Below, one piece after another: positions 537 through 33,571 of a stretch of DNA of 40,077 nucleotides. Origin of the DNA: Verrucomicrobiota bacterium (lineage in GTDB: Bacteria > Verrucomicrobiota > Verrucomicrobiia > Palsa-1439); NCBI GenBank assembly GCA_016871575.1, contig VHCW01000037.1:1-40077 (forward strand). Direction: 5' to 3'. The notes beneath the pieces were generated by a model. The model was not told the origin of the DNA and did no database searches. It saw only the letters and a list, made by a program, of their open reading frames with translations. How positions within the stretch are numbered: the stretch's first letter is position 1; each line of letters begins with the position of its first letter. Made by a program: the position numbers and the translations under genes.

Positions 537-1418
537 CTAGCATTCACACAGCAACCGCCGCACATCCGCTGCGCGCACCACACCGGCGGTCTCCGTCAAC
601 GCATTGGCCGCGCCGCAGGCGACACCCAGCCGCACGGCTTCCCTCAAGTCCCAGCCGCGCCGCAGTCCCGCGACGATCCCAGCCAACATCGAATCGCCCG
701 ACCCAATCGGGTTCAACGCTTTCACACGCGGCGGATGAACCACCCATCGTTCACGGCCATCGAAGCCGACCACCGGCTTCGCTCCGCTCGTAATCACTAC
801 CCGCTCCGCGCCAAACTTCCTCAACGCTGTAACTCCTCCCTTGCCTGCCGCCGCCGCCAATTCCGCTCGGTTGATCTTGACCAGACTCGGATGCTCGCGC
901 ACCGCGCCCATCAACTGCGCTTTCTGGGCGTCCACTGCCACCGGCACACCGGCCTTGCGAGCCGCCCGCGTCAGCCGCGCGTAAAAGTTGTCACCGCAAC
1001 CGCGCGGCACTGTCCCGCTCAACACCAATATCTTCGTGCGTTTCAACTCCTCCTCAAACGCATCGAAAACAGCGCGCACTTCCGTGCGTTGCAACGCCGC
1101 CGATTCTTCCACCACCTCGGTCGCCGCGTTGCCGCCAACGAGCGTCTGGCAGAACCGCGTTTCCCCGCGCACCGGCACGATCCGCGCGCGAATGCCATTC
1201 GCTGCCAACGCCTGACAAAACAATTTGCCCCGACGACCACCTGCCACGGTCAACAGACGCACTCTTTCTCCCAACGTCATCAGGACCCGCGCTACGTTGA
1301 CGCCCTTGCCCGACGCAGTCTCGACCACCCGTTGTACCCGGTTCACCTCGCCAAGAGAAAACTCGTCAAAAAAAAGCGTCCGCTGCCATGCCGGCGACAG
1401 ATTCACCACCAAAATCAT
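537..1418 (-). CDS. PfkB-family sugar-phosphate kinase (FruK/LacC type)
   Basis: This 293-residue protein belongs to the ribokinase/PfkB superfamily and resembles 1-phosphofructokinase and tagatose-6-phosphate kinase. Near the N terminus ASGKGVNVARVL is the sugar-phosphate binding segment typical of FruK and LacC. Near the C terminus NPIGSGDSMLAG is the anion-hole motif, with D242 as the catalytic base. The substrate cannot be read from the sequence. The start ATG overlaps the ribD stop as ATGA and has GGGAGATG upstream, so translation is probably coupled to ribD. Its position between ribD and ribE is odd for a glycolytic kinase. It may act on a phosphorylated sugar or ribityl intermediate, but that is only inference from context. 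Confidence 0.85.
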   Translation of the reverse strand: MILVVNLSPAWQRTLFFDEFSLGEVNRVQRVVETASGKGVNVARVLMTLGERVRLLTVAGGRRGKLFCQALAANGIRARIVPVRGETRFCQTLVGGNAATEVVEESAALQRTEVRAVFDAFEEELKRTKILVLSGTVPRGCGDNFYARLTRAARKAGVPVAVDAQKAQLMGAVREHPSLVKINRAELAAAAGKGGVTALRKFGAERVVITSGAKPVVGFDGRERWVVHPPRVKALNPIGSGDSMLAGIVAGLRRGWDLREAVRLGVACGAANALTETAGVVRAADVRRLLCEC

Positions 1419-2440
1419 TTGACATCTCCCTCAAAAAGCATGTCCGAGCCGGTTCTGCGCCACATTCCGTGCACCATCTTAGCTTTGGCCATCGTTGCTG
1501 AACCGGCGATCACCTTCGGCGCAAAAAAGAAAGCTACCTTGTCCACCACACCGGCATCGAACGCCGCACGCAACAGCGTCGGCCCACCCTCAATCAGCAC
1601 GCTCGTGACTCCCATCCGACCCAACTTCCGCAACACCAACCGCAGGTTCCGTGTCGTGAAATGAACGGTCCGTTCACGGTGCGCATCCGTGAATACCCTG
1701 GCAGTTCGCGGACACCGCCCGACCACCACGCGCCACGGTTGCCGACCGCGCACGCCGTGCCGAAGCGTCAACTGCGGATCATCGCGGATGACGGTGTTCG
1801 CGCCGACCATGATGGCGTCCACCTGCGAGCGCAACTGGTGCGCTTCCCGGCGCGCCGCTTGGCCGGTGATCCATTTCGAGTCGCCGGTGCGCGTCGCCAT
1901 TTTGCCATCGAGACTCAGCGCCGCCTTGGCAATGACCCACGGCATCCCGGTGACGATCCATTTATTGAACCCCGGGTTCAACGCAGCCGCCTCCTCCGCG
2001 AGCAAACCAGCCCCGACTCGGATTCCTGCGCGCCGCAACAGACGCAGGCCGCGACCGCGATGTTTCGGGTTCGGGTCCGTCGCCGCCACTACCACACGGC
2101 GAACACCCGCAGCAATAATGGCATCCGTGCACGGCGGCGTTCGGCCGTGCGTGCAACACGGCTCCAGCGTGACGTAGAGAACCAGTCCTGAGTCCCTGGT
2201 CCTGAGTCCTGAGTCATGACTACGGACGCTGGACGCTGGACGCTGGACTCCTGCGTCCCGCAGCGCATTGATTTCAGCGTGCGCATCACCGGCGCGACGA
2301 TGCCAGCCTTCGCCGATGATCTTGCCGCCGCGCACCAACACGGCGCCAACAGCCGGGTTCGGGCTGGTCTTGCCGATGCCGCGACGGGCGAGCGCCAGCG
2401 CGCGCCGCATGAATCGTTCATCTTGTTCGGTGAAGCTCAC
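1415..2440 (-). CDS. ribD: Bifunctional pyrimidine deaminase/reductase RibD with repeat-derived insert
   Basis: RibD catalyses the second and third steps of riboflavin synthesis: deamination of the GTP-derived pyrimidine, then NADPH reduction of its ribosyl chain. With a GTG start at 2440 (reading VSFTEQDERFMRRAL) the protein has 341 residues, close to family length. The open frame continues upstream to a TTG at 2545, but those extra residues have no family character. The deaminase zinc site is visible as H54 and E56 (HAEINAL), C95 (PCCTHG) and C104. The reductase half begins near WVIAKAALSLDGKMA. Residues about 65-86, between HAE and the PCC motif, are an extra segment encoded by nine tandem heptamers; RibD proteins normally have a short loop there. 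No strong Shine-Dalgarno precedes the GTG, so the start is moderately certain. Confidence 0.92.
   Translation of the reverse strand: MSFTEQDERFMRRALALARRGIGKTSPNPAVGAVLVRGGKIIGEGWHRRAGDAHAEINALRDAGVQRPASSVRSHDSGLRTRDSGLVLYVTLEPCCTHGRTPPCTDAIIAAGVRRVVVAATDPNPKHRGRGLRLLRRAGIRVGAGLLAEEAAALNPGFNKWIVTGMPWVIAKAALSLDGKMATRTGDSKWITGQAARREAHQLRSQVDAIMVGANTVIRDDPQLTLRHGVRGRQPWRVVVGRCPRTARVFTDAHRERTVHFTTRNLRLVLRKLGRMGVTSVLIEGGPTLLRAAFDAGVVDKVAFFFAPKVIAGSATMAKAKMVHGMWRRTGSDMLFEGDVK
2186..2248. repeat. Two adjoining 7-bp tandem arrays inside ribD
   Basis: The stretch is exactly 63 bases, or nine heptamers. Five are variants of TCCTGAG (2186-2220) and four end in GGAC with unit GCTGGAC (2221-2248). Nine sevens equal 21 codons, so the ribD frame is kept. 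The encoded peptide is rich in Ser, Arg, Asp and Gly and lies between the zinc-binding His and the first zinc-binding Cys. It looks like an intergenic-type repeat that entered a permissive surface loop. Confidence 0.85.
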
Positions 2441-24750: not shown

Positions 24751-24817
24751 AAATCCGAAATTCGAATTTTGGTCATTCGAATTTGCTTCGGATTTCGGAT
24801 TTCGGATTTCGGATTTC
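24751..24817. repeat. Heptamer array and inverted repeat in the lysS-lolC gap
   Basis: Four perfect CGGATTT units run from 24789 to 24816. Immediately before them are two copies of ATTCGAATTT, and AAATCCGAA (24751-24759) is the complement of TTCGGATTT (24787-24795). The element occupies nearly the whole gap, so it forms the lolC leader. Confidence 0.88.
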
Positions 24818-30178: not shown

Positions 30179-30285
30179 ACGCCGCCGAAACCCAACGCCT
30201 CGAAACGATCTACCGGCGGAAGCTGGGGGCGCTGGCGGAATGGAAGAAGGCGCTGCTGCACCGGGCGTTCAGCGGAGAATTATGA
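30175..30285 (+). pseudogene. Remnant of an hsdS 3' end (36 codons)
   Basis: The frame opens at an ATG that overlaps the dinD stop and encodes AETQRLETIYRRKLGAL onward, almost identical to the C terminus of HsdS (ending AFSGEL against AFAGEL). It lacks both recognition domains. It is the second copy of the direct repeat and marks a past duplication or cassette exchange at this point. Confidence 0.8.
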
Positions 30286-30304
30286 ATTATGAAGGATGAA
30301 GGAT
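30277..30304. repeat. Heptamer array forming the start region of the next gene
   Basis: Two GAATTAT units are followed by two GAAGGAT units, 28 bases in all. The array covers the stop of the hsdS remnant, and its last unit supplies the first two bases of the next ATG. AAGGA of the third unit sits 6 bases before that ATG, so the array acts as the ribosome site. Confidence 0.85.
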
Positions 30305-31070
30305 GAAAGCGGAGACGGACAGACTGTTTGACAAGCACGGCGGGTTTCGGCGGCTGCACTCGTTCACGCTGGCGACCATCGTGCAGCTCGAGACGCTGCG
30401 GTTCTGCCGCCGGTTCCTGACGCACGATCACCGGGAAGCGGGCGGGAAGTTCTACGATCCGAAAGGCCGGCAATACGACCAGATGACCCAGGCGGCGCGG
30501 AGCGGCCGGCAGAACATCATCGAGGGTTCGGAGCGTGCCTCGACCTCGAAGGACACGGAGATGAAACTGACCGACGTGGGACGGGCAAGCCTGAGCGAGT
30601 TGCGCGGCGACTACGAGATCTTCATCCTAGACCGGGGCGAGTTGCCGTGGTCGGTCCATTCGGCGGAAGCCCGGGCGGTGAACGCGGTCTCGCTGGACCC
30701 GGCGCCATTCACCGACGACATGGTGCATGAGTCCGCGAAGCACGCGCGGGAGCAGCGCCGCAAATATGCGCGCTGGCTGGACGCGGAAGACCCGGTGGTG
30801 GTCGCCAACGCGATGCTGATCATCATCAGTCGCGCGTTGAACATGCTCAAGAGCCAGATTGCGGCGCAGGGGGAAGCGTTCGAGCAGGCGGGCGGGTTCA
30901 GCGAGCGGTTGAGCACGCGGCGGCTCGCGGCCCGCGAGGAGCAGCGCCAAGACGAAGCCGCGCCGGTCTGCGCGAAATGCGGCCAGCCGATGCGCCGACG
31001 GAAGTCTGCAAAGGGGGAGTTTTGGGGGTGTACTGGATACCCGGCATGCAAGGGGACGCGGCCGTTATGA
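30303..31070 (+). CDS. Four-helix-bundle suffix-domain protein with C-terminal zinc ribbon
   Basis: The 255-residue protein resembles the four-helix-bundle family related to the 23S rRNA intervening-sequence protein and Avd, in its suffix-domain form. The helical part includes TLRFCRRFLTH, QMTQAARSGRQNIIEGSE and LTDVGRASLSELRGDYEIFI. A C-terminal zinc ribbon of topoisomerase type has C223, C226, C243 and C249 (CAKCGQ, then GCTGYPACKG). Such proteins occur near restriction and retroelement loci; function is unproven, and nucleic-acid binding is the best guess. It lies between the hsdS remnant and hsdR on the same strand. Confidence 0.8.
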   Translation: MKAETDRLFDKHGGFRRLHSFTLATIVQLETLRFCRRFLTHDHREAGGKFYDPKGRQYDQMTQAARSGRQNIIEGSERASTSKDTEMKLTDVGRASLSELRGDYEIFILDRGELPWSVHSAEARAVNAVSLDPAPFTDDMVHESAKHAREQRRKYARWLDAEDPVVVANAMLIIISRALNMLKSQIAAQGEAFEQAGGFSERLSTRRLAAREEQRQDEAAPVCAKCGQPMRRRKSAKGEFWGCTGYPACKGTRPL

Positions 31071-33533: not shown

Positions 33534-33571
33534 GGACAGGAAGGGCAGGAGGCAGGAGGCAGTTCTCAGTA
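33534..33571. repeat. Heptamer array downstream of hsdR
   Basis: Units of GGCAGGA (33544-33557) and degenerate neighbours have a 7-base period. The array lies in the 217-base gap between the hsdR stop and the convergent era stop, in which no gene or clear terminator is visible. Confidence 0.7.

Follow-up and report, generated by a model that had tools for sequence, protein, structure and literature searches.

A heptanucleotide repeat array in a deaminase-domain loop of a verrucomicrobial RibD, probably a neutral member of a class of repeats already described in bacteria

The window analyzed here is a 40,077-nucleotide stretch of DNA from a Verrucomicrobiota bacterium (GCA_016871575.1, VHCW01000037.1, positions 1 to 40,077), drawn from a 5.19-Mb genome (G000) in which it is contig C37. 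On its reverse strand lies ribD (1415..2440), encoding the bifunctional deaminase/reductase RibD, and within this gene is the array of 7-bp units that is the subject of this report. The start codon is near 2440 (MSFTEQDE...), while the mechanical open reading frame runs on to 2545. The product scores 317 bits with the TIGR00326 equivalog, whose cut-off is 156, and both of its Pfam domains, the deaminase domain and RibD_C, are intact. RibD matches were found in all 57 genomes searched, and the closest named relative, judged from RibD, is a metagenome-assembled genome of an uncultured member of the Verrucomicrobia (CAIKAP010000196).

The array consists of nine 7-bp units in a single register (2185..2247), which on the forward strand read GTCCTGA, GTCCCTG, GTCCTGA, GTCCTGA, GTCATGA, CTACGGA, CGCTGGA, CGCTGGA, and CGCTGGA, as seen by direct reading, Tandem Repeats Finder (TRF), and a period-7 scan. 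Four units are of the GTCCTGA type, two are degenerate, and three are CGCTGGA. TRF calls two forward-strand blocks, an imperfect GTCCTGA-type block (2187..2215) and an exact core of 3.6 copies of GGACGCT (2224..2248; score 50, 100% matches), because the word switches midway; both blocks share one register. Two degenerate border units, CTCCTGC and GTCCCGC (2248..2261, forward strand), continue the array, and the count of nine given by the first-pass annotation of this DNA thus holds for one register and varies with the cut points. Base identity seven positions onward is found at 46 of the 63 positions, and the 70-bp window over the array is the top period-7 window in the 1.64 Mb (about a third) of the 5.19-Mb genome that was scanned. 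At nine other periods, the same match value was reached once each for periods 12 and 15 and never for the other seven. For the 2187..2215 block, the coding-strand sequence GACTCAGGACTCAGGAC occurs exactly once in the genome. The hairpin potential of the array is weak (z-score −1.9 as RNA and −1.7 as DNA).

The reading frame is open through the array, which is located, as first annotated, between the HAE and EPCC motifs. When the motif positions of the RibD alignment are converted to window coordinates, the codons for HAE (H54–E56), the extended connector, and EPCC (E93–C96) span 2153..2281 on the reverse strand. His54, Ala55, Glu56, Pro94, Cys95, and Cys104 are invariant in the alignment and are all present in the window protein, which, with its deaminase and reductase domains and the zinc motif HAE...PC..C intact, is predicted to be an active RibD. 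Its structure model (mean predicted local distance difference test score, pLDDT, of 86) matches solved RibD structures, and the array-coded residues fall between the end of helix 55–63 and the start of strand 87–92 in the model. Residues 76–82 have pLDDT values below 50 and are predicted to be disordered, a short stretch (69–73) is modeled as a helix, and the loop is about 16 residues shorter in solved homologs. His54 lies at the opposite end of helix 55–63 and Cys95 past the opposite end of strand 87–92, a topology that would put the loop and the zinc site on different sides of the domain. Because the loop joins the far ends of the helix and the strand and the zinc motifs are intact, an altered zinc-site geometry, one of two consequences originally proposed, appears unlikely. 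The other, a neutral passenger, is the better option.

Comparing the connector between HAE and EPC across RibD relatives, it becomes clear that the loop is usually short, as had been expected. The connector has 36 residues in the window protein and 18 in the RibD of a same-genus genome (G001), and aligning the two genes as DNA shows that the window gene is longer by 54 bp net. Short connectors of 16–24 residues are usual, and the other family members have 16–23, with the exception of G002 (36) and G004 (35), whose loops lack tandem heptamers and resemble the window loop faintly at most. Most RibD proteins of the group do not carry a conserved long segment lacking heptamers, and no heptamer array, whether of three, six, or nine units, was found in the RibD loops read in a search of ten other family genomes. 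In a RibD tree built with the loop left out, the window groups with G001, then with G009 (18 residues), and then with G002, so that long loops require three changes (window, G002, and G004); monophyly of the long-loop sequences is rejected by an approximately unbiased (AU) test (p = 0.0004), the group having been named after the loops were seen. On these alignments and this tree, long loops were gained three times independently, and the connector is a permissive site. Since the nearest branches have 18-residue connectors and the net gain is 54 bp, the array is lineage-specific and its insertion recent, and the earlier figure of 63 bp and 21 extra residues is inexact by comparison with the 18 residues gained. 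The rule that the frame is kept only by multiples of three units does not hold either, as only the net length change need be a multiple of 3, and 54 is not a multiple of 7.

A loop of old length, in which the letters alone turned into heptamers without insertion, is consistent with the 35–36-residue loops of G002 and G004 and with arrays in TruA, NadB, PurH, and KsgA of this genome that have taken the place of loops while adding few residues or none. However, the nearest branches (G001 and G009) have 18 residues and the grouping of long loops is rejected, which makes such a replacement in ribD very improbable. The threefold lengthening at the same place in the family could also reflect selection on an extended loop that alters RibD oligomerization, partner binding, or regulation. 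We regard this as very unlikely, because the three long loops have little or no sequence in common, the window loop is predicted to be disordered, and like arrays are present in many unrelated enzymes.

Such arrays are not peculiar to ribD, as about 30 of them occur in the third of the genome that was scanned. At the threshold used, the scan detected 30 period-7 arrays compared with none in a Markov shuffle and 21 period-14 arrays compared with 2, these two periods being the most frequent. With genes called by a purpose-made simple codon-usage caller, 23 of the 30 period-7 arrays lie within gene calls, mildly below the expectation from a coding fraction of 0.90 (P = 0.03). The genes holding arrays encode KsgA, Der, an HsdM-like methylase, PurH, PurL, TruA, L-aspartate oxidase (NadB), and members of a PQQ-propeller family. 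In-frame heptamer arrays are present in KsgA (L048 4599-5408), Der (L044 14809-16257), PurH (L178 15211-16788), TruA (L175 14464-15201), and L-aspartate oxidase (L047 14579-16216). Scored genic arrays are 2.7–5.1 units long, again at odds with a multiple-of-three-units rule, and the ribD array is the longest among the period-7 arrays sampled. The array words are nearly always free of stop codons on the coding strand and often not on the opposite strand, the pattern that translated arrays should show. Der, like RibD, gained residues relative to solved homologs. The genome is a single metagenome-assembled genome in 257 contigs, and an assembly artefact therefore had to be considered; it is extremely unlikely, given that the array is short, its frame is open throughout, both RibD domains are intact, and similar arrays are found in frame at many loci.

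According to Mrazek, Guo and Shah (2007; cited in PMC4679880 and PMC4692102), heptamers are reported to be the most abundant class of long simple sequence repeats (SSRs) in most bacterial genomes, with slippage over a 7-nucleotide polymerase contact proposed to produce them. Heptanucleotide long SSRs resemble the arrays seen here in their tandem 7-bp unit, a genome-wide period-7 excess, and locus-specific words, and differ in that 23 of 30 arrays in this genome lie within genes, many of them central genes. The ribD array likewise comprises tandem 7-bp units beyond statistical expectation. The heptameric short tandemly repeated repetitive (STRR) sequences of filamentous cyanobacteria and the degenerate heptamers in P6b of the Nostoc tRNA-Leu intron (PMC2670836, PMC3488679) are also imperfect tandem arrays whose copy number varies, and some lie in a variable loop of a functional molecule. 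However, STRR sequences disperse one heptamer as many arrays, whereas the ribD words are unique as arrays in this genome, where other words recur; moreover, the ribD array has weak hairpin potential and occupies a protein loop rather than an RNA stem. The TAACTGA repeats of Beggiatoaceae (PMC4679880) are tandem heptamers too, some in open reading frames, but they favor one word and lie mostly upstream of start codons, whereas here many words occur, mostly within genes. Nothing specific on heptamers in Verrucomicrobia was found in a literature search.

The ribD block is probably a lineage-specific heptanucleotide SSR, an unusually long example of a type of long SSR already described in bacteria, which grew by slippage and is tolerated in a loop as a neutral or nearly neutral segment. 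Duplications of 7 bases would arise and expand by strand slippage in the connector between helix and strand in the deaminase domain of RibD, and the units would later be altered by point changes and small indels. Selection would retain only those products that lack stop codons and whose length has changed, on balance, by a multiple of 3, and the array would then be carried as a flexible loop. We infer neutrality or near neutrality because the modeled connector points away from the zinc.

Several observations weigh against slippage at random sites as the whole explanation. No copy-number variants of the ribD array were found, the same-genus genome lacking the array, and ongoing slippage was thus not observed. 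The arrays of KsgA, PurH, TruA, and L-aspartate oxidase stand in place of loops that have nearly the same length in solved homologs, and loops overwritten by several arrays at nearly constant length are not predicted by pure random slippage. Nor are different heptamers in one linker: PQQ-propeller paralogs that are 34–43% identical (clustered at L171, G000 C7:20001-40000, and at L032 9412-12645) carry the heptamers GCAGAAA, TCCGAAA, ACTCACC, and one of a GACTCGT type in the same linker before DWPTFR, its length being roughly kept. Furthermore, the words of arrays in unrelated genes form 15 pairs within one mismatch, compared with a mean of 4.5 for letter-shuffled words (0 of 500 shuffles reach 15), a resemblance that random-site slippage alone would not be expected to produce. 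Either biased slippage or copying could give rise to such shared words. It is unlikely, in our judgment, that in this lineage short heptamer arrays from a shared word set repeatedly overwrite loops and linkers by templated copying, leaving different heptamers in homologous linkers of paralogs, and that the ribD loop is one such case. The exact ribD words were not found in any other array of the genome.

Rickettsia palindromic elements are a repeated palindromic family that makes in-frame additions to protein-coding genes, and the ribD block, being in frame within an open reading frame, could likewise be a small mobile or copied element. The near-identical words common to arrays of unrelated genes beyond chance and the common flanks of some TTCGGAT arrays (at window 24787, L035, and L183) would be in line with this origin. 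However, those elements form a multicopy family in one genome, whereas the ribD block gives a single DNA match, its own, in the 5.19-Mb genome, where its words form no other array. Among 188 genomes of the class, no GACTCAG array and only one other GGACGCT array were found. Moreover, array words match their own flanks no better than foreign flanks (mean longest match 5.0 direct and 5.2 inverted, versus 5.1 and 4.75); copying from the flanks was thus rejected, and no claim is therefore based on the 8 nucleotides of the array that match the VTLE codons in inverted orientation. A mobile or copied element is accordingly quite unlikely.

While the ribD loop alone is a modest curiosity, the in-gene habit of arrays in this genome is of greater interest. 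As one of many, the ribD array illustrates that 7-bp repeats can enter housekeeping enzymes in mid-gene without being eliminated, a finding relevant to the preference for a unit of seven in bacteria and to the origin of new protein loops. Insertion, slippage, and templated replacement can be compared directly in the PQQ-propeller paralogs.

Further heptamer arrays were observed in the window and in other genomes of the class. About 100 kb of the same-genus genome held no true period-7 array, compared with one per 55 kb here, a sample too small to establish a difference. A genome of another family of the class (G026; L230 and L231) has seven period-7 arrays in 40 kb and is thus denser in arrays than the window's genome. 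False matches produced by runs of N in some loci were discounted in this comparison. Within the window, an exact intergenic array of 4.4 TTCGGAT copies (24787-24817) has counterparts with like flanks (attcgaatttg...) in L035 and L183, and TTCGGAT arrays are possibly a dispersed repeat. An array at 30277-30307 switches its word midway, from two copies of GAATTAT to two of GAAGGAT, and overlaps a predicted gene start; a GAAGGAT array is present also in the other family (L230). Finally, a short GGCAGGA array lies in an intergenic region at 33544-33562.
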